Positions 1 through 8,839 of a DNA stretch of 64,000 nucleotides are shown here, in pieces. This stretch comes from Mycobacterium sherrisii (GTDB taxonomy: Bacteria > Actinomycetota > Actinomycetes > Mycobacteriales > Mycobacteriaceae), in NCBI RefSeq assembly GCF_002102355.1, contig NZ_LQPT01000040.1, positions 124,001 to 188,000 on the forward strand, read 5' to 3'. Position numbers and translations under genes: made by a program. Under the pieces are notes generated by a model. It was not told the DNA's origin. It ran no database searches and saw only the letters and a list, made by a program, of their open reading frames with translations. Positions within the stretch are counted from its first letter, which is position 1, and each line of letters begins with the position of its first letter.

Positions 1-1275
1 CTGCCGGAACTCTGCGATGCGATCCTCGACCACGATCGGCCCATTCACGTGCCCTGTGACGACTCCGTGGTGCGCGTCGTAAGGGACGACGCCGAAGGCA
101 GCGAACTCCCGCTGCGCCGGTCCCGCGGCTACGCACCGCTGCCGATCGACCTGAACCTCGATGGGCGCATCGACGCGCGACGGGCCCCCAGCGTCCTGGC
201 GGTGGGCGGGGAACTGAAGAACACCTTCTGTCTCACCGACGGTGCGCTCGCCTACCTGTCCGGTCATATCGGGGACATGGCTACCTGGGAGACCCTGCGT
301 GCATTCGAGCGGGCGGTTGGTCAACTCAGCGAGATCCGAGGCACCCCAACACGATTCGCGGCCGACCTGCATCCGGGGTATCACACCCGCAATTGGGCCG
401 AGCGCCACGGCGGCGGCAGGCCACTGGATCTGATCCAACACCACCACGCGCACGTCGTGTCGCTGTTGGCCGAACACGGGCGCATCGGCGAACCTGTCGT
501 GGGCGTGGCCTTCGACGGCACCGGCTACGGTCCCGATCACACCATCTGGGGCGGGGAGATTCTCACCCTCGGGCCGGACAGCCACCGCTTCGCGCGGGCG
601 GCCCACCTGCGTCCGGCGCCACTGCCCGGCGGCGACTCGGCGATCCGCAATCCATGGCGGGCGGCACTGTCCCAGTTATGGATCGCCGGCATCGACTTCG
701 GCGGCGACCTCGCACCGGTCGCCGCAGCCACCCCGGACGAACTACGGCTGGTCCGCTCGCAATTGGAAACCGGTGCGGGATGTGTCCCGTGTTCCAGCGT
801 GGGGCGGCTGTTCGACGCGGTCGCGTCGCTACTCGGGGTGCGACACCGCGTCGACTACGAAGGCCAGGCCGCGATCGAACTCGAGGCACTCGCCGAACGC
901 GCCGACGGCCCCGTTCCCTCGCTACCGCTGCCGGTCCGTCCCAACGGGGTGATCGACCCAACCACCCTGATCCAAACGATGGTCTCGGCGCTGTACGCCG
1001 GTACCCCACCCGCGCGGCTGGCCGCCGCGTTTCACCGGGCGATCGCGGCCGCGGTCGCCAAGGCAGTCTCGCTGGTGGCCGGGCCCACCCGACTGGTCGG
1101 CCTTACTGGCGGCGTGTTCCAGAACGTACTGCTGCTACGCCTATGTCGGGAATTGTTGCAAAACAACGGCTTTGAGGTGCTGAGCCACCACTTGGTGCCA
1201 CCTAACGACGGCGGACTGGCGTTGGGACAGGCAGTGATCTCGATGCTGACCGCGCTCGAGGAGGCAAAGACATGA
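1..1275 (+). CDS. hypF: Carbamoyltransferase HypF, C-terminal part (cut by window edge)
   Basis: HypF makes the thiocarboxamide on HypE that becomes the cyanide ligands of the [NiFe]-hydrogenase active site, from carbamoyl phosphate and ATP. The frame is open from base 1, so the acylphosphatase, zinc-finger and most of the YrdC-like part lie outside the window. Visible are the end of the YrdC-like domain (PCDDSVVRVV, then RSRGYAP) and the complete Kae1-like domain: ELKNTFCL, DLHPGYHTR, the metal-binding HHHAH, GGVFQN and NDGGLALGQ near the C-terminus. The apparent ATG at base 49 is internal. The next gene overlaps its end by 4 bases, so it is translated as part of the hyp operon. Identification is firm. 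Confidence 0.96.
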   Translation: MPELCDAILDHDRPIHVPCDDSVVRVVRDDAEGSELPLRRSRGYAPLPIDLNLDGRIDARRAPSVLAVGGELKNTFCLTDGALAYLSGHIGDMATWETLRAFERAVGQLSEIRGTPTRFAADLHPGYHTRNWAERHGGGRPLDLIQHHHAHVVSLLAEHGRIGEPVVGVAFDGTGYGPDHTIWGGEILTLGPDSHRFARAAHLRPAPLPGGDSAIRNPWRAALSQLWIAGIDFGGDLAPVAAATPDELRLVRSQLETGAGCVPCSSVGRLFDAVASLLGVRHRVDYEGQAAIELEALAERADGPVPSLPLPVRPNGVIDPTTLIQTMVSALYAGTPPARLAAAFHRAIAAAVAKAVSLVAGPTRLVGLTGGVFQNVLLLRLCRELLQNNGFEVLSHHLVPPNDGGLALGQAVISMLTALEEAKT

Positions 1276-2000
1276 CACCCATCGCCGCGATCGACCGCGG
1301 ACTGAGCGCCGGGCTGGCCGCCGAACTAACCGACGACCTGGCCGCCACGGCCTTCACCGTGGCGAAGCGATTCGCCGCGGGCGCCACCATGTGGTCGATC
1401 GCCCCGTCCTGGGAACCGCATGCCCTGCACATCGCGGTCGAATTCGTCCATCCGGTGATCATGGGCAAACGGGCGTTACCGGCGGTCGCGCTCACCGGAC
1501 CGGATCTGGTGGACCTGGCGCGAGTGTCGGTGCAGCCCGGCGACGTCGTGATCGCCGTTGCCGGCGCCGACGACGCGCAGGCACGTTCGGTGCTGCGCCG
1601 AGCCCCGGCATGGGGAGCCACCACGATCTGGATCGGCAGCGGCGCCCGGCCGCCGGCCGGTGCCGCCGATCACGTGCTCTGGCTCGACGATCCCGATCCG
1701 CGGGTGCCGGCAACCGGCGGATTCGTGCTGTTTTACCACCTGCTGTGGGAGCTCACCCATGTCTGTTTCGAGCACTCCGGGCTGCTCAAACCCGAATGCG
1801 CCGAAGACATTTGCCTCACCTGCAGCGACGAAGGCCGGCTGGGCGAGGTCGTGGGCCCCTCGACCGGCGGGCAGGCCGCGGTCCGCACGGCCCGCGGGGT
1901 GCAGAACGTGATCACGACGCTGGTCGAGCCGGTCGCCGCCGGCGACCTGGTGCTGGTGCACGCAGGCACGGCAATCAGCAAGATCCAGGAGGGTCTTTGA
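1272..2000 (+). CDS. SIS-like domain fused to a HypC/HupF chaperone domain
   Basis: This 242-residue protein has two parts. Residues 1-165 look like a degenerate sugar-isomerase (SIS)-type fold. Residues about 175-242 are a HypC-like beta-barrel: ICLTCSDEGRLGEVV followed by a hydrophobic core and VHAGTAISKI, the usual HypC end (VHVGFAxxKI). Free HypC uses its N-terminal Cys2 to carry the Fe(CN)2CO unit to the large subunit; here the equivalent Cys is internal, beside a second Cys, and cannot become N-terminal without cleavage. The start overlaps hypF by 4 bases and the stop overlaps the next ATG. It is a hydrogenase-maturation protein by context, but the role of the fused SIS part is unknown to me. 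A canonical HypC is encoded 1.8 kb downstream. Confidence 0.85.
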   Translation: MTPIAAIDRGLSAGLAAELTDDLAATAFTVAKRFAAGATMWSIAPSWEPHALHIAVEFVHPVIMGKRALPAVALTGPDLVDLARVSVQPGDVVIAVAGADDAQARSVLRRAPAWGATTIWIGSGARPPAGAADHVLWLDDPDPRVPATGGFVLFYHLLWELTHVCFEHSGLLKPECAEDICLTCSDEGRLGEVVGPSTGGQAAVRTARGVQNVITTLVEPVAAGDLVLVHAGTAISKIQEGL

Positions 2001-2665
2001 TGAGCGACGAACCCACCAACTTCCTCTACCCCTTCATCGACGCCGAAGAGAGCGACCCACCCTCGCTGCTCGCCGACCTGGCCGCATCAGCACAGGCCAA
2101 GGCGGCCGAGAGCCTGGCGTTGCGGCGCTCAACCCTGCAGGCCAATGCGGAACTGCTGGAGCTGGCGGGCGCCGAGACGGCGCGCCGCTTCGCCGCCGGC
2201 GGCCGGATGTTCACCTTCGGAAACGGCGGCAGCTGTACGGATGCCACCACCCTCGCGAGCTTGTTCGCCAGGCCGCCGACCGGCGGATCGCTGCCGGCCT
2301 GGTCGCTGACCGCCGACCAGGCCATCATGACCGCTCTGGGCAACGACGTCGGATTCGAGCTGGTGTTCGCCCGCCAGCTGATCGCCCGCGCGAAAGCCGG
2401 CGACGTCGCGATCGCGATATCCACCAGCGGCAACTCGCCGAACCTGCTCACCGCGCTGGCCGAGGCGCACCAACGTGGCCTCTACACAATCGGTTTCGCC
2501 GGCTATGACGGCGGCGCCTTCGTGGACAACCCGAACGTGAACGCCGGCTTCATCGTTCATTCGCAAAGTGTGCACCGGATCCAGGAATCGCAAGCGCTGC
2601 TCGGTTACCAGCTGTGGCTGACCGTCCACAAACGACTCGACAACCACGGTGTGGGGGCCGCATGA
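2000..2665 (+). CDS. GmhA-like SIS-domain protein in the hyp operon
   Basis: This 221-residue protein has a single SIS domain related to phosphoheptose isomerase GmhA: the phosphate-binding loop FGNGGSCTD (about residues 74-82), the second loop SGNSPN, and RIQESQALLGYQLW near the end, where GmhA has RIQExH. The histidines usual in the last helix of GmhA are replaced (ESQ, LGY), so isomerase activity is doubtful; that comparison is from memory of the family. It overlaps both neighbours by ATGA junctions, which indicates translational coupling to hydrogenase maturation rather than to heptose synthesis, and no heptose pathway gene is nearby. Automatic annotation would call it sedoheptulose-7-phosphate isomerase; I consider the function open. 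Confidence 0.85.
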   Translation: MSDEPTNFLYPFIDAEESDPPSLLADLAASAQAKAAESLALRRSTLQANAELLELAGAETARRFAAGGRMFTFGNGGSCTDATTLASLFARPPTGGSLPAWSLTADQAIMTALGNDVGFELVFARQLIARAKAGDVAIAISTSGNSPNLLTALAEAHQRGLYTIGFAGYDGGAFVDNPNVNAGFIVHSQSVHRIQESQALLGYQLWLTVHKRLDNHGVGAA

Positions 2666-3762
2666 ACAAGTACCTGGCATCGGGACCGCGCTTCGCCGAA
2701 GGCGAGGTTATCGAGCGGATCGAGTCATTCCGGCGGCGCCGGCCGCGGTTGCTCGACGATCACGTGACGCTAGCGCACGGCGCCGGCGGCAAAGCGTCGG
2801 CGGCATTGCTGGACGCCGTGTTTGTGCAAGCGTTCCGCAATCCGGCGCTGGAGTCACTGGGTGACGGCGCGGTGCTCACCTTGCCCGGCGGGCAGCGACT
2901 GGCCATGTCCACGGATTCGTTTGTCGTGCAGCCCAGGCGCTTTCCCGGCGGCTCCGTGGGTGCCCTCGCCGTGCACGGCACCTGCAACGACCTGGCGATG
3001 ACCGGCGCGGTGCCCGCCTGGATCTCGGCGGCATTCGTGCTCGAAGAGGGCTTCCCCATCGCCGAGTTGAAAGAGATCGTCGCCGATATGGCGACGGCGG
3101 CGGCCAATTGCGGCGTGCAGATCGTCACCGGCGACACCAAGGTGGTCCCGGCAGGCGCCGCCGACGGCCTGTTCGTCACCACCACCGGAGCCGGCGTGAT
3201 TCCGTCCGGGCGGACGCTGTCGGCCGATTCGGTTCGCGTCGGCGACAAACTGCTGCTCTCCGGGACTATGGGCGACCACGGCATGGCGGTCATGCTGGCC
3301 CGCGGCGATCTGGCCATCGACGCCGACATCCGCTCCGACACCGCCTCGCTGGGCCCGCTGGTGGAATTGCTGATGGCCGCGGCCCCGTCAACCCGTTGGA
3401 TGCGCGACGCCACCCGCGGCGGGGTCGGCACCGTGTGCAACGAGCTGGCCCAGGCGTGCGGCTTCGGAGTGCTGCTCGACGAGCGACGGCTTCCCGTACA
3501 GCCCACCGTGACCGGCGCGTGCGAGCTGCTCGGTATCGACCCGCTCTACGTGGCCAACGAGGGCAAGTTCGTCGCCGTCGTCGCGGCCGAGGAGGCCGAA
3601 CCCGGGTTGCGGGCGCTGCGGTCGCACCCGTTGGGCGCCGAGGCCGCCGAAGTAGGGGAAATCGTCGCCGAACCAGCCGAAAGCGTGGTGCTGCGAACCG
3701 GTTTCGGCGGCACTCGGATCGTCGACATGCTGGTCGGCGACCCGTTGCCGAGAATTTGCTAA
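2662..3762 (+). CDS. hypE: Hydrogenase maturation carbamoyl dehydratase HypE
   Basis: HypE receives a carbamoyl group from HypF on its C-terminal cysteine, dehydrates it with ATP to a thiocyanate and passes cyanide to the HypC-HypD complex. The protein of 366 residues has the AirS/PurM fold: LAHGAGGKAS (residues 38-46), STDSFVV, HGTCNDLAM, GDTKVV and RDATRGG. It ends exactly in the diagnostic PRIC, the cysteine being the carbamoylated residue. The start is the ATG at 2662, overlapping the stop of the SIS gene; an in-frame ATG 48 bases upstream lies inside that gene and is unlikely. Confidence 0.97.
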   Translation: MNKYLASGPRFAEGEVIERIESFRRRRPRLLDDHVTLAHGAGGKASAALLDAVFVQAFRNPALESLGDGAVLTLPGGQRLAMSTDSFVVQPRRFPGGSVGALAVHGTCNDLAMTGAVPAWISAAFVLEEGFPIAELKEIVADMATAAANCGVQIVTGDTKVVPAGAADGLFVTTTGAGVIPSGRTLSADSVRVGDKLLLSGTMGDHGMAVMLARGDLAIDADIRSDTASLGPLVELLMAAAPSTRWMRDATRGGVGTVCNELAQACGFGVLLDERRLPVQPTVTGACELLGIDPLYVANEGKFVAVVAAEEAEPGLRALRSHPLGAEAAEVGEIVAEPAESVVLRTGFGGTRIVDMLVGDPLPRIC

Positions 3763-3790: not shown

Positions 3791-4063
3791 ATGTGTCTTG
3801 GCATTCCAGGACGAATCGTCGAAATCACCGACCCCGCCAACTATCTGGCGAAGGTCGACGTCAGCGGCGTGCAACGGACAATCAGCGTGCGGCTGCTGCA
3901 AAACGACATGCCGGACCCCGACGAGTGGGTGCTAGTCCACGTGGGCTTCGCGATGGCCAAGATCGACGAGACCGAGGCGATGCGCACCCTGGCCGCGATC
4001 CAGAAGCTCGGCGACGCCTACACCACCGAGATGGCGGCCTTCGACTCGTCGGCGATCGGCTAA
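3791..4063 (+). CDS. hypC: Hydrogenase assembly chaperone HypC
   Basis: This 90-residue HypC/HupF family chaperone shuttles the iron unit between HypD and the hydrogenase large-subunit precursor. It begins MCLGIPGRIVEI with the essential Cys2 exposed after Met removal, and contains the conserved VLVHVGFAMAKID. The start is supported by a strong AGGAGGTG ribosome site 5-10 bases upstream (about 3776-3783). It lies 28 bases after hypE and 11 before hypD, the only non-overlapping junctions of the cluster, and both are led by strong ribosome sites, perhaps to raise HypC and HypD expression. It is the standard copy beside the SIS-fused HypC domain upstream. Confidence 0.97.
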   Translation: MCLGIPGRIVEITDPANYLAKVDVSGVQRTISVRLLQNDMPDPDEWVLVHVGFAMAKIDETEAMRTLAAIQKLGDAYTTEMAAFDSSAIG

Positions 4064-4074
4064 GGAGGATCGAC

Positions 4075-5205
4075 GTGAAATTTGTTGACGAATTCCGCGA
4101 TCCCGCCGCAGCGCGAAAGCTACTCGTGGCCATCGAACACCTGGCCGGAACCGACGGCGAACACTTCAAGTTCATGGAGGTGTGCGGCGGGCACACGCAC
4201 ACCATCTACCGGCACGGCATCGAGCACCTGTTGCCCGAAACCGTCGAACTGGTGCACGGCCCGGGATGCCCGGTCTGCGTGATCCCGATGGGCCGCATCG
4301 ACGACGCGATGTGGCTGGCCGCGCAGCCGGGCGTGACCTTCACCTGCTTCGGCGACATGATGCGGGTGCCCGGATCGAACGGAAGTCTGTTGGACGCCAG
4401 AGCCCGCGGCGCCGATGTGCGGTTCGTGTACTCCCCGCTGGACGCGCTGAAGGTTGCGATCGACAACCCGGACAAACACGTCGTGTTCTTCGCAATCGGG
4501 TTCGAGACCACCGCCCCGTCGACTGCGGTCACGCTGGTGCGGGCGCGCGAGCTGGGGCTGGCCAACTTCACTGTGTTCTGCAACCACGTCACGATCGTCC
4601 CGCCGATCAAGGCGATCCTGGAATCACCGGATCTGCGGCTGTCGGGCTTCATCGGACCCGGGCACGTGTCGACGGTGGTGGGCAATCGCCCCTACCGGTT
4701 CGTTCCTGAGGTATACCGAAAGCCGTTGGTAGTGGCCGGGTTCGAGCCACTGGACATCCTGGCGTCGGTCACGATGCTACTCCGTCAGATTCGTGACGGC
4801 CGCTGCGAGGTGGAGAATCAATACCAGCGGGTGGTGCCCGAGCACGGCAACCCCGCCGCCCTGGCCCTGATGGGCAAGGTGTTCGCGCTGCGGCCGCACT
4901 TCGAATGGCGCGGCCTGGGCTTCATCTCCCAAAGCGCGCTGCGGCTGCACGACGATTTCGCGGAATACGACGCCGAGCTGCGCTTCGCGATGCCGGGCGT
5001 GCGGGTCGCCGACCCGAAGGCCTGTCAGTGCGGCGAGGTCCTCAAGGGTGTGCTCAAGCCTTGGGAATGCAAGGTTTTCGGCACCGCCTGCACGCCGGAG
5101 ACCCCGATCGGCACCTGCATGGTATCCCCCGAGGGCGCATGCGCGGCCTACTACAACTTCGGCCGGATGCATCGAGACGCCGTCAAACTTGTGGGGCGCA
5201 CTTGA
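4075..5205 (+). CDS. hypD: Hydrogenase iron-ligand assembly protein HypD
   Basis: HypD is the [4Fe-4S] scaffold on which Fe(CN)2CO is assembled with HypC and HypE. The 376-residue protein starts KFVDEFRD, typical of the family, and carries CGGHTHTIYRHG (residues 37-48), GPGCPVC (62-68), IGFETTAPS and a C-terminal cysteine set in CQCGEV, WECKVFGTAC and GTCMVSPEGAC that holds the cluster. The start is GTG at 4075, led by TAAGGAGGA, where the TAA is the hypC stop. Length and motifs are complete. It overlaps the next gene by a TTGA junction. Confidence 0.97.
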   Translation: MKFVDEFRDPAAARKLLVAIEHLAGTDGEHFKFMEVCGGHTHTIYRHGIEHLLPETVELVHGPGCPVCVIPMGRIDDAMWLAAQPGVTFTCFGDMMRVPGSNGSLLDARARGADVRFVYSPLDALKVAIDNPDKHVVFFAIGFETTAPSTAVTLVRARELGLANFTVFCNHVTIVPPIKAILESPDLRLSGFIGPGHVSTVVGNRPYRFVPEVYRKPLVVAGFEPLDILASVTMLLRQIRDGRCEVENQYQRVVPEHGNPAALALMGKVFALRPHFEWRGLGFISQSALRLHDDFAEYDAELRFAMPGVRVADPKACQCGEVLKGVLKPWECKVFGTACTPETPIGTCMVSPEGACAAYYNFGRMHRDAVKLVGRT

Positions 5206-5945
5206 GCGACACGACAATCCGGCGCGGCGCGGACATGTTCGCCCGCTACGCGCATGCGCCCAACGCGCTGGGCTATTGCGGCCCACCACTGGGAGCGACA
5301 TTGCGCGCCGGCTCGGTCGCCCAGATACGCGCTGCGGCGGCAAAGTTCTCCGGAGCCTGGCCGTACCTGCGGGTGCTGGCCAGCCTGAGCGGGATCGACG
5401 ACCCGCTGGACTACCGGGTCGTCGAATCGTACTGGCTGGGCGGCGGGATCGGTGCAGCGCTGGACCCGGCCCAGTTCCTCGACGCGTTGCTGGCGATCAT
5501 CGGCCCGCAGGCCGGCCACTACTGGTCGCACCTCACGCCGGACCTGGCCCGCGAGGCCGCCGGCAATCACTGCTTCCACGTCTTCGGCGTCTATCCGTGG
5601 ACGCGATTTCTCGGTCGGGGCGCCGATCAGCATCCGCTGGACGTGCTGGACAATTGCCGAATAGCTTGGGGCACCGTGGTTTCCCGCACCGGCGACACGG
5701 TCGAACTACGGTGCCGGCGGTTGGTCTGCGACGGTGACGGTCTCGCGCTGGGCGAACCGGCGGTGCGCACCTTGGACGTCTGCGCCGACGGGCACAGCGC
5801 GCTGCCCGGGGTGGCCGTCGGCGACGAGGTCGCGGTGCACTGGGACCGGTTGTGCGGCCGGCTGGACGCCGAGCAGGCACGCAGACTCGCCGACAGCACC
5901 CACCGCCAATTGCGGGTGACCAGCCGGCGGCTGGCCCGAGTCTAG
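5202..5945 (+). CDS. Conserved hyp-operon protein, DUF6390-like
   Basis: This protein of about 247 residues starts at a TTG overlapping the hypD stop; an ATG 33 bases later (FARYAHAPNALGYCGPP) is the alternative. I recognise it as the actinobacterial DUF6390-type family that accompanies hydrogenase maturation genes; no enzymatic motif is known to me. Visible features are a conserved N-terminal YAHAPNALGYCGPP, a central NHCFHVFGVYPWTRFL rich in His and aromatics, and a C-terminal region (GVAVGDEVAVHWDRLCG) that resembles a small beta-barrel of HypC/HupF style. There is no signal peptide or membrane span. A cytosolic accessory in hydrogenase assembly is an inference from coupling to hypD. Confidence 0.75.
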   Translation: MSDTTIRRGADMFARYAHAPNALGYCGPPLGATLRAGSVAQIRAAAAKFSGAWPYLRVLASLSGIDDPLDYRVVESYWLGGGIGAALDPAQFLDALLAIIGPQAGHYWSHLTPDLAREAAGNHCFHVFGVYPWTRFLGRGADQHPLDVLDNCRIAWGTVVSRTGDTVELRCRRLVCDGDGLALGEPAVRTLDVCADGHSALPGVAVGDEVAVHWDRLCGRLDAEQARRLADSTHRQLRVTSRRLARV

Positions 5946-5964: not shown

Positions 5965-7107
5965 ATGTCTGGTCCAGCGCCCGGTTCCCTGTGTGATGTG
6001 CTGCCCGCGAGTGCCGCACTGCTCGGGATTGCGGGCAGCGCCGACCGGTTAGGCGTGACGGAATCGGTTGCCGCGCAGGTGGATCGGGTCGCGGTGCTGC
6101 TGGTCGACGGCCTCGGCTGGCACCTATTGCCACAGCTAGCGCCCAGCGCGCCGCTGCTTGCCTGCGTGCTGGGCGGCGGCACCGGACGGCTGACCCGGCT
6201 GGAGTGCACCTTCCCGTCCACCACGCCGAGCAGCCTGGTGTCGCTGGGTACCGGCACGCCACCGGGCGCGCACGGCATCCTCGGCTTCACCGTCAACGTC
6301 CCGGGCACCGATCGGGTGCTGACCCACATCTATTGGCGCTCGGACTCACCCGGGGCCCCGCCGCACGCCCAATGGCAGCCGGTGCCGACCTGGTTCGAGC
6401 GGCTCGAGCGGTCCGGGGTGGCCACCCGGGCGGTGCTGCCGCAGCTGTTTGTGGGCAGCGGGCTGACCGACGCGGCGTATCGCGGCGCCACCGTGCGCCC
6501 GGCGAGCCCGACCGACGACTATGCCCAACTGATGATCGACGAACTGCACGCCGCGCCGGGGCTAGTCTACGGCTACATCGCCGACCTGGACACCGCCGCA
6601 CACGTCTTCGGCATTGGATCGCCGCACTGGCATCAGGCGGCCGCACGCGTCGACATGCTGCTGACCCGCCTGGTCGACGCATTACCCGCGAACACCACAC
6701 TGCTGGTCACCGCCGACCACGGCGGCCTGAACGTGCCGCCGCAGGCCCGCGTCGACCTGGACACCGACCCACGGCTGAGCGCGGGAATCCGGGTGGTCGC
6801 GGGGGAACCGCGGGTGCGCTACCTGCACACCGAACCGGGTGCCGCCGCCGATGTGCGCGCGGCGTGGAGCGAGGTGCTCGACGGCCGGGCCGTGGTCTAC
6901 ACCCGCGAACAGGCGGTCGCCACCGGCATGTTCGGGCCGGTCGATCCGCGGCATCTGGCGCGAATCGGTGACATCGTCGTCATCTGCACCGGCGACACGG
7001 CGGTACTGGCGACCGAGCACGAGCCCCCGGAAGCGGCCCGCCTTGTCGGTTTTCACGGCGGTGCCACGCCCGTCGAAATGGACATACCGCTCATCGTGTT
7101 CGAATAG
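5965..7107 (+). CDS. Alkaline phosphatase superfamily / type I phosphodiesterase-like protein
   Basis: A 380-residue protein of the alkaline-phosphatase superfamily close to nucleotide pyrophosphatase/phosphodiesterases. Metal and nucleophile motifs are in the family order: VLLVDGLGW (residues 44-52) with the first metal Asp, PSTTPSS (84-90) with the likely Thr nucleophile, YIADLDTAAH, VTADHGG and a final GFHGG. There is no signal peptide, so it is probably cytosolic. It follows the DUF6390-like gene by 19 bases and could belong to the same transcript, but its family has no known link to hydrogenase and the substrate cannot be told from sequence. Confidence 0.88.
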   Translation: MSGPAPGSLCDVLPASAALLGIAGSADRLGVTESVAAQVDRVAVLLVDGLGWHLLPQLAPSAPLLACVLGGGTGRLTRLECTFPSTTPSSLVSLGTGTPPGAHGILGFTVNVPGTDRVLTHIYWRSDSPGAPPHAQWQPVPTWFERLERSGVATRAVLPQLFVGSGLTDAAYRGATVRPASPTDDYAQLMIDELHAAPGLVYGYIADLDTAAHVFGIGSPHWHQAAARVDMLLTRLVDALPANTTLLVTADHGGLNVPPQARVDLDTDPRLSAGIRVVAGEPRVRYLHTEPGAAADVRAAWSEVLDGRAVVYTREQAVATGMFGPVDPRHLARIGDIVVICTGDTAVLATEHEPPEAARLVGFHGGATPVEMDIPLIVFE

Positions 7108-7730: not shown

Positions 7731-7885
7731 TCCCGCGCCACCAGCCGGTCGGCACCTCCCTTTGCCCTACGCGGCGAATGAGGCCGTGCCGGTCAGCACC
7801 AAGGCAGTGGTCGTTCTCAGCATCGATGCTTTGAAGGGAAATTTATGTTTTCGTGTCATTTCGCCAGCAAAAGAGCGAGGTAGCA

Positions 7886-8839
7886 GTGGATTTCGCAACG
7901 CTGCCACCGGAGACCAATTCCGCCCGCATGTACACCGGCCCCGGCGCGAGATCGTTGATGGACGCCGCAATCGCCTGGGAGGGGCTGGCGGGACGGCTGC
8001 GCCGGACAGCGGCGCAATACGACGCGGTGATGATGCCGAGCCGAGCCGCGGCAGCCTACGTCCATTGGCTGCAGGTTCTTGCCGAGCATGCCGAACAGAC
8101 CGCAGACCGGGCCAGGGCGGCCGCCTCGGCCTACGAACTCGCCCTGGCGGCCACGGTGCATCCCTCGGCCGTCGCCGCCAACCGCAGCCTGCGGACATGG
8201 CTGGCGGAGACGAATCATCTGGCTCAAGCGAGCCCGGCGATCGCCGACGCCGAGGCCGACTACGACCAGATGTGGGCTCAGGACGCCGCCACCATGTATG
8301 CCTACGCCGCGTTCTCCGCCGAGGTGGTGACCGACACCCCCTTCCCGCCGCCGCCGGGCTCGGGTATCACACCCGACGACACACCAGGCAGCTGGGAGTT
8401 GACGTCCGCACCGGAGGTGGTCGCGACCGGCGACGCCGTGATTTCGGCGATCTGCGACACCCTGACTGCCCTGGCCACGTCGCCGCGAACCGCCTTCGAA
8501 AGTTCCCTCGCCCCGGTGACCGTCCCCCTGTCGAAACTCGGTTCGCTGTGCGGAGATTCGGATTTCGCGATCAACCGCCTCAGTTATCTGAACAAGCAGG
8601 CGACGCTGGCCAACGCGGCGGCGCTGCTCGCGCTGTTACCGAACCGGGAACGCGCCGCGAATGCGGGGGCGGGGCTGGGACGCGCGGTGTCCGTCGGGAG
8701 CCTGTCGGCGCCCCGGGGCTGGATGGCCGCGACGCCATTGCCGGCCGCCGCCGAATGGCCCAGCGCCGTCAACGCCGAGACACGCTACCGATTCGCGCAT
8801 TCGAGGCGTACGAGTTCGCGGCCTCGACAATCGCGTTGA
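7886..8839 (+). CDS. PPE family protein, solitary, lacking WxG and with an atypical C-terminus
   Basis: The start is GTG at 7886 with a GCGAGG ribosome site, giving DFATLPPETNSARMY, the canonical PPE opening, in a protein of about 317 residues. The approximately 180-residue PPE helical domain is present (MWAQDAATMYAY), followed by a linker and the PPE-SVP-like motif GSLSAPRGW. At the helix turn where PPE proteins carry WxG (for example SSWFGPA in the PPE at 40232-41311), this one reads MMPSRAA with no Trp. No PE partner is adjacent. The last 71 bases overlap the end of a convergent gene and encode an Arg/Ser-rich tail that looks like fortuitous read-through. Secretion by an ESX system is therefore uncertain. 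Confidence 0.85.
   Translation: MDFATLPPETNSARMYTGPGARSLMDAAIAWEGLAGRLRRTAAQYDAVMMPSRAAAAYVHWLQVLAEHAEQTADRARAAASAYELALAATVHPSAVAANRSLRTWLAETNHLAQASPAIADAEADYDQMWAQDAATMYAYAAFSAEVVTDTPFPPPPGSGITPDDTPGSWELTSAPEVVATGDAVISAICDTLTALATSPRTAFESSLAPVTVPLSKLGSLCGDSDFAINRLSYLNKQATLANAAALLALLPNRERAANAGAGLGRAVSVGSLSAPRGWMAATPLPAAAEWPSAVNAETRYRFAHSRRTSSRPRQSR

Follow-up and report, generated by a model that had tools for sequence, protein, structure and literature searches.

Two GmhA-like SIS proteins in a mycobacterial hydrogenase maturation operon as putative halves of one composite site

Analysis of a 64,000-nucleotide stretch of Mycobacterium sherrisii DNA (contig NZ_LQPT01000040.1, positions 124,001 to 188,000; the window) revealed two SIS proteins in the middle of a hydrogenase maturation (hyp) operon. 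Open reading frames (ORFs) and family profiles gave the order hypF, a fusion of a SIS domain with a HypC-like domain (SIS-A/HypC'), a second SIS protein (SIS-B), hypE, hypC, hypD, and a DUF6390 gene (Table 1), and the gene order and coordinates proposed in a first-pass annotation, with two SIS proteins inside the operon and one fused to HypC, were upheld. The same annotation gave 4-base overlaps throughout, which was correct for hypF/fusion (ATGA) and SIS-B/hypE and incorrect for fusion/SIS-B, where a single base is shared (TGATG). Comparison with GmhA suggests that SIS-A and SIS-B are complementary halves of one GmhA-type site, and the genomic context, inside hyp operons and with one HypD group across phyla, gives good support to the earlier proposal that the pair serves hydrogenase maturation.

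Both proteins belong to SIS, SIS-A by fold and alignment only since no SIS family profile matched the fusion (none in Pfam, and none in NCBIfam over its first 183 residues). SIS-B was assigned to Pfam SIS_2 (E 1.5e-14) and its AlphaFold model, with a predicted local distance difference test score (pLDDT) of 79.4, had GmhA structures as top Foldseek match. The fusion model, at a mean pLDDT of 68.7, also placed GmhA structures first (E 8e-7), and the SIS fold was thus found in both proteins, by Pfam for SIS-B and by Foldseek for the two. Further fold matches included the SIS regulators MurR, RccR, and NanR, and DiaA was among the matches of both models.

Each GmhA site is described as built from residues of several chains (PMC11056994), with the zinc ligands H61, E65, and H183 from one monomer and Q175 from its neighbor (PMC5387315). 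A published model places the substrate contacts N53, G55, S121, T122, S123, S126, and Q173 in one monomer and E66 in another, the catalytic Glu thereby coming from a different monomer than the sugar/phosphate contacts and the Gln (PMC7705670). These positions were scored on an alignment of 115 SIS-A and 115 SIS-B rows in which two-domain ORFs were divided by order (first domain A, second B), the first SIS of L121 was assigned to A by hand, and the first domains of L128 and L140 scored better with the B model; second copies were omitted (L094, L129-L138, L144), and the SIS-A of L064 and SIS-B of L086 were not recovered as ORFs. SIS-A rows kept H61, E65, and H183 without exception (115/115 each) and never an intact STSG loop (0/115). 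SIS-B rows had N52, G53, G54, D58, T121, S122, and G123 in all 115 cases, Q175 in 114 of the 114 rows long enough, and neither H61 nor E65 (0/115 each). The first-pass observation that the GmhA-like protein lacks the C-terminal His was borne out, H183 being Tyr in SIS-B, and H61 and E65 are gone from it as well, all three standing on SIS-A. The signatures HxxxEFxHP (115/115 A, 0/115 B) and LYP (115/115 B, 2/115 A) also separated the two proteins, and the invariant His and Glu residues of SIS-A comprised H53, E57, H60, H156, E160, E167, and H168. The mycobacteria display the fullest split, as their SIS-A has Thr at Q175 and their SIS-B Tyr at H183.

The full GmhA site (H61, E65, H183, Q175, and STSG) is carried by neither window protein and by all six single-chain proteobacterial SIS relatives (one with Ala for the last loop Ser; LYP in 5/6). 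A and B occur in one ORF in Thermus and many actinobacterial loci, and in the order A-HypC'-B in L113 and L117; a Thermus plasmid has A and B in one frame and HypC' as a separate gene, and the layout of a Sulfobacillus plasmid is the same except that the frame is broken near its end. Judged from these sequences, a complete homo-oligomer that was duplicated and then shared out its site would be the simplest history, and the reverse, a later merger of two halves, is possible. The residue split would exemplify, in nature, the clean division of a homo-oligomeric active site between duplicated subunits. The Sulfobacillus double-SIS gene (L090 13818-14892) is unannotated and its 3' frame break reflects sequencing error or decay. 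A Uxx-star glutaredoxin-like gene lies near the Thermus double-SIS gene (L089 15046-15306), similar matches were seen in two actinobacterial loci (L131 10987-11208, L138 17761-17982), and L090 has an annotated glutaredoxin at the corresponding place; such a gene might encode a redox partner.

Compared with GmhA, a sedoheptulose-7-phosphate isomerase, the pair combined has the same fold, the NGGS and STSG loops, and all of the zinc ligands H61, E65, H183, and Q175; it differs in the distribution of these residues over two proteins, in Pro at the place of Arg69, in the EFxHP motif newly present in SIS-A, in an LYP motif before SIS-B, and in scores under the equivalog cut-offs. An ordinary GmhA-type heptose enzyme present in the operon by accident would accord with the gmhA annotations in M. 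smegmatis, S. erythraea, and At. ferrooxidans. However, SIS-B scored 107.3 bits against a GmhA equivalog cut-off of 276 and 100.7 bits against another of 209.45 (NCBIfam), SIS-A gave no match, and even the single SIS of C. necator fell short (148 versus 209). Furthermore, R69 is Pro in 115/115 SIS-A and 111/115 SIS-B rows, each protein by itself has an incomplete site, and the linkage to hypD extends over several phyla. A heptose role, which the first-pass annotation had named as grounds for refutation, is therefore highly improbable given the scores and the Arg69 replacement, and was discarded on scores, residues, and context.

The HypC' domain matched Pfam HupF_HypC (39.9 bits, cut-off 28.5; E 4.7e-10; profile positions 15-55 of 65), remained under the TIGR00074 subfamily cut-off (29.1 of 48), and matched solved HypC chains weakly (best E 0.058). 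Sorting with two hidden Markov models of two seeds each, which makes the class sizes approximate, separated 112 HypC' from 184 ordinary HypC domains: CxTC was present in 109/112 HypC' and 0/184 HypC, versus a Met-Cys start (MC[LVI]) in 1/112 and 182/184, respectively. HypC' was found in 98/103 pair loci (the stretches examined lacked it in L128, L129, L134, L140, and L154), 0/6 single-SIS loci, and 0/12 SIS-less hyp loci. By these motifs and counts, HypC' is a distinct HypC paralog with CxTC that goes with the SIS pair; it has the Pfam family of the HypC/HybG/HupF chaperones and its model shows strands of a small barrel, and it differs from them by the missing Met-Cys start, the internal CxTC, and its fusion to or company with the pair.

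The fusion to a HypC paralog would fit a structural or DiaA-like scaffold in which the SIS pair merely holds HypC' and HypD together. DiaA binds DnaA and shares the GmhA fold. It exemplifies that fold in another use, its E65 having become Ser (PMC7705670), and in this it differs from the present pair, where the ligands are retained on the partner protein and the site survives as two complementary halves, whole in 6/6 single-SIS proteins. That one partner conserves the metal ligands and the other the phosphate loops argues for an active site, and we regard a mere scaffold as distinctly unlikely.

The neighborhood of the pair was surveyed in the best 80 of 198 candidate loci ranked by similarity to the fusion, among which M. 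paraense was the nearest relative fetched (fusion 86% identity). SIS-B adjoined the fusion in 80/80 of these loci (fetched by the fusion), and SIS-A was present in 45 of 187 HypD-bearing versus 3 of 209 HypD-less genomes among 396 Actinomycetota (p 5e-13, relatedness not corrected), so that chance does not explain the arrangement; in total SIS-A occurred in 48 genomes and HypX in 13 (11 with HypD). One-chain SIS proteins with at least 60% identity to that of C. necator were detected in 16 plasmid records, and in 6/6 records opened the gene adjoins hypD. Hhy genes accompanied 61 of the 80 loci, Huc-like genes 6, and neither 13 in the stretch examined. Restriction of the pair to group 1h was rejected, as Huc-like operons of an M. 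intracellulare plasmid and Pseudonocardia carry it; the group 1h label is based on resemblance to the M. smegmatis Hhy described in PMC6883350, and the Huc-like (2a) label is our own assignment from subunit size and gene set. Eight genomes had HucL at 70% identity or more, three with SIS and none with HypX. One of the other five (G249, locus L149) has a decayed form beside a Huc-like hydrogenase, with a SIS-A part lacking HxxxE, a HypC' that keeps CVTC, and no SIS-B in the 20 kb examined; this single case acts as a natural check on the split site. A match in G347 proved to be an ordinary GmhA-like gene.

SIS-linked operons had HypDs 61-93% identical to that of the window, G249 had one of 70%, and SIS-less operons had none above 52%, with 49% for the second HypD of the window genome itself. 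In a HypD tree of 39 rows (L026, L068, and L072 thinned out), a branch (90/88) set apart the 26 SIS-linked HypDs, which represent Actinomycetota, Pseudomonadota, Thermus, and Sulfobacillus, along with G249 and a long-branched E. coli row, and no HypX-linked HypD (0/5) lay on their side of it. The HypX-linked HypDs of C. necator, Bradyrhizobium, and Rhizobium formed a separate set (100/100), and eight SIS-less actinobacterial HypDs, two of them HypX-linked, a third (100/100). The tree program warned of long branches meeting, and the tree serves as a guide only. The SIS genes thus appear from these sequences to go with one HypD group across phyla, and the module is encoded and inherited with hyp genes, 45 of the 48 SIS-A genomes having HypD.

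HypX is a formyl-tetrahydrofolate-dependent CO synthase and the known CO source in aerobes. Like the SIS genes it is an accessory gene of aerobes' hyp operons; it differs by its association with other HypD groups, by its absence from the 109 fetched SIS loci (the best 80 of 198 plus 29 others; tblastn over stretches of ~4 to 40 kb), and by having no Pfam domain in common with the pair, in which only SIS_2/SIS and HypC and no HypX-type formyltransferase or enoyl-CoA hydratase domain were found. Among 74 HypD-bearing genomes with a haem-copper oxidase (COX1), 35 had SIS, 10 HypX, none both, and 29 neither (p 0.0011, a value that overstates the case because all ten HypX genomes share one genus, taken for Streptomyces). 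In S. avermitilis, hypX is reported among the Hhy accessory genes (PMC4767420). The 113 HypD-bearing genomes without a COX1 match comprised 10 with SIS, 1 with HypX, which was also the single genome with both (G083, on different contigs), and 103 with neither. SIS was enriched with the oxidase (p 4e-9), yet its restriction to aerobes was not strict given those 10 of 113 genomes, 9 of one family. For the correlation with HypX suggested by the first-pass annotation, the 109 loci thus gave no HypX and the 74 COX1 genomes mutual exclusion, with HypX confined to one genus, and over all 187 HypD-bearing genomes no association was detected (p 0.47).

Hhy (HhyL at 60% identity or more) was present in 33 of the 74 genomes, G013 counted on two partial matches; 20 had SIS, 10 HypX, 3 neither, and none both, and no HypX match was thus obtained in 23 of the 33. 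The window genome has haem-copper oxidases and no HypX match. The plasmids of C. necator and Bradyrhizobium each carry one HypX operon and one SIS operon with different HypD groups, the single SIS gene of C. necator H16 being H16_RS31885 in its second hyp operon, and 9 of 42 plasmid records with HypX also carry a one-chain SIS gene 54-88 kb away. Strict replacement of HypX by SIS was too strong a claim given the p value of 0.47, G083, and the three Hhy genomes with neither, and a fair reading is that of two accessory solutions for different Hyp lineages, plus genomes with neither. HypX-like proteins with ~50% identity to C. necator HypX were also encoded in L122 and L123 (G049 and G214, same family), genomes in which no HypD match reached the limit applied, and HypX lies apart from annotated hydrogenase genes in the stretch examined of Mycetohabitans and Acaryochloris plasmids; HypX may also serve in CO or formyl metabolism unrelated to hydrogenases.

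We consider it reasonably probable that the SIS pair assists Fe(CN)2CO assembly as an accessory enzyme that depends on metal and phosphate and works through a composite A/B site. SIS-A and SIS-B would form a hetero-oligomer descended from a GmhA-like homo-oligomer, at whose A/B interface SIS-A would supply the metal ligands H61, E65, and H183 and SIS-B the sugar/phosphate loops together with Q175. One kind of composite site, metal-dependent and phosphate-binding, would thereby be kept and its mirror image lost. The fused HypC' would tie the enzyme to the HypC/HypD/HypE assembly line of the same operon, the substrate would be a small phosphorylated metabolite, and the Fe(CN)2CO group would be built or loaded with the help of the pair. 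The phosphosugar conversion proposed in the first-pass annotation gains support to the extent that metal ligands and phosphate loops are kept, on opposite partners. Residue complementarity, operon context, the link to one HypD group, and the HypC' motif are read from sequence, and from them we infer A-B binding, a bound metal, catalysis of any kind, the substrate, and the step in which the pair takes part.

Several observations weigh against this enzyme. The A/B interface is assumed from GmhA and the fusion model is of middling confidence (pLDDT 68.7). Most non-mycobacterial pairs retain SIS-A Q175 (23/115 rows) and SIS-B H183 (26 rows), and only H61/E65 and the phosphate loops are therefore fully split. 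In the alignment, Mycobacterium and close relatives account for 87 of 115 SIS-A and 87 of 115 SIS-B rows (79 from the fusion-similarity set and 8 more), and some species may be represented twice. Hhy occurs without SIS, and also without HypX, in G038, G363, and G172, so that the pair is not needed for the Hhy enzyme class as such. The SIS-less E. coli HypD, whose branch is very long, groups with the SIS side of the tree and, with the long-branch warning, is why a single origin is not claimed. Finally, the conserved site could serve regulatory ligand binding in place of catalysis.

SIS domains often act as phosphosugar sensors, and the A/B pair could accordingly bind a phosphosugar without turnover and gate HypC'/HypD, coupling assembly to carbon status. 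The SIS regulators among the fold matches and the lack of an obvious sugar-pathway partner enzyme in profile scans of the operon would suit such a sensor, yet a metal site would be superfluous for sensing and its three ligands are invariant in SIS-A, and we hold a sensor to be rather unlikely. An iron or other metal donor to HypCD, in which the SIS-A His/Glu site and the HypC' CxTC carry iron and phosphate binding is a switch, would account for the many invariant His and Glu residues of SIS-A and the CxTC motif. The iron source of HypCD is termed unresolved in PMC10847431, and the same source reports evidence for the Isc machinery in E. coli. A donor would nevertheless leave the sugar/phosphate loops of every SIS-B row unexplained, and HypC' is found in 0/6 single-SIS operons; we give this explanation little credence, as little as the scaffold.

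For the proposed accessory enzyme, CO ligand supply would be the most interesting step, with iron delivery or a redox step as others. CO supply fits the setting, in which the pair occupies the place of HypX, mostly in aerobes, with a HypC paralog at hand, and is one of several possible steps; it stays possible only, because of the three Hhy genomes with neither SIS nor HypX, the single genus of the HypX genomes, and the p value of 0.47. In its specific form, SIS-A/B would provide [NiFe]-hydrogenase in air with a second source of CO that does not depend on HypX: at the composite metal site a phosphosugar would give a GmhA-type enediolate, which would break down and release CO, e.g., with O2, and HypC' with its CxTC would carry CO or Fe-CO to HypCD. 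Nickel acireductone dioxygenase, which releases CO with O2, offers a chemical analog. We rate this form as a speculative proposal that is unlikely to hold as it stands; if true, it would mark the HypD lineage across Actinomycetota, Pseudomonadota, Thermus, and Sulfobacillus, with HypX as the alternative elsewhere. A conserved enzyme-like module with named residues brings the question of CO origin within reach in organisms taking H2 from air.

The gene label gmhA in a hyp neighborhood is already in print, as for MSMEG_2706, next to hypE among the Hhy hyp genes of M. smegmatis (PMC5445863), and for SACE_3069/3071 near hypD SACE_3073 (PMC3359211), and 68 SIS genes that surround [NiFe] hydrogenases have been listed as one cluster (PMC12727194). 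Two further systems involve a GmhA that may be akin to the present SIS family: a GmhA-HypD-HypE association predicted in Clostridium (PMC3231954), and At. ferrooxidans, where proteomics counts a GmhA among the maturation proteins of the group 2a operon and detected its increase in step with HypB1, HypE, HypC1, HypF, and HybD (PMC7735108), in accord with a maturation role. The latter rise was in anaerobic growth (PMC7735108), which does not favor a strictly O2-linked role. No functional or mutant study of a hydrogenase-linked SIS was found in the open-access literature, where a subscription paper could be missed, and a word search of one review gave no mention of the SIS proteins. New here are the split site, the one-chain and A-B fused forms, the HypC' paralog, and the HypD-group link with the HypX pattern.

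Table 1. Positions of the hyp operon genes and of the SIS and HypC' features within the window
Feature	Position	Strand	Basis
hypF, C-terminal part	1..1275	+	Pfam HypF_C, HypF_C_2; TIGR00143 partial; N-terminus upstream of the window
SIS-A/HypC' fusion, 242 residues	1272..2000	+	ORF; HypC family match; GmhA-like fold over first ~170 residues
H53 and E57 of SIS-A (GmhA H61, E65), within HxxxEFxHP	1428..1442	+	Both kept in 115/115 SIS-A rows
H156 of SIS-A (GmhA H183)	1737..1739	+	Kept in 115/115 SIS-A rows
HypC' domain, HypC barrel without N-terminal Met-Cys	1791..1997	+	Pfam HupF_HypC
CLTC motif (CxTC) of HypC'	1812..1823	+	C.TC in 109/112 HypC', 0/184 HypC
SIS-B, 221 residues, GmhA-like	2000..2665	+	Pfam SIS_2; AlphaFold pLDDT 79.4, top fold match GmhA
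NGGS sugar/phosphate loop of SIS-B	2222..2233	+	N, G, G in 115/115, S in 114/115 SIS-B rows
STSG phosphate loop of SIS-B	2420..2431	+	T, S, G in 115/115; first S in 113/115 (2 Thr)
Q195 of SIS-B (GmhA Q175, metal ligand from neighboring subunit)	2582..2584	+	114/115; remaining row too short
hypE	2662..3762	+	TIGR02124 above cut-off
hypC, ordinary, MCLGIPG start	3791..4063	+	TIGR00074 above cut-off
hypD, GTG start assumed, member of SIS-linked HypD group	4075..5205	+	TIGR00075 above cut-off; trees
DUF6390 gene	5235..5945	+	Pfam PF19927

The DUF6390 gene also adjoins SIS-less Hhy operons (L145, L147), and in the window it is followed by a type I phosphodiesterase/nucleotide pyrophosphatase gene (5965-7104; Pfam PF01663). 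A frame at 7853-8839 resembles what we take to be a PPE-family protein, in line with the Mycobacterium source. Upstream on the same contig are a group-1h-like hydrogenase (HhyS, HhyL), a NifU/Rieske-like HhyE, a hypA-like gene, a first hypC, and hypF, and between them are genes that correspond, by position alone, to those for DUF5947, DUF6084, an unknown protein, and a protease in the C. necator cluster. The window genome has a second hyp set (hypE-D-C-F and hypA-B), with no SIS match in the two stretches examined near it, and its own Huc-like hydrogenase lies ~13 kb off, near this SIS-less cluster. This second cluster (L006, G000:C20:24000-43900) stands beside RuBisCO-, aldolase-, and transketolase-like genes as judged from translations. 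In three loci (L088 9962-11017, L161 8241-9320, L165 10796-11857), the gene that directly precedes that of the large subunit carries the annotation "hydrogenase expression protein HypE" at the place of a small subunit gene, and is probably a misnamed small subunit. Second hydrogenase large subunits with 36-39% identity to HhyL match through one TGA in G301:C102:66437-68116, G385:C4:65424-67079, G365:C39:5255-6916, and G329:C3:339407-341059; these may be selenocysteine [NiFeSe] enzymes.

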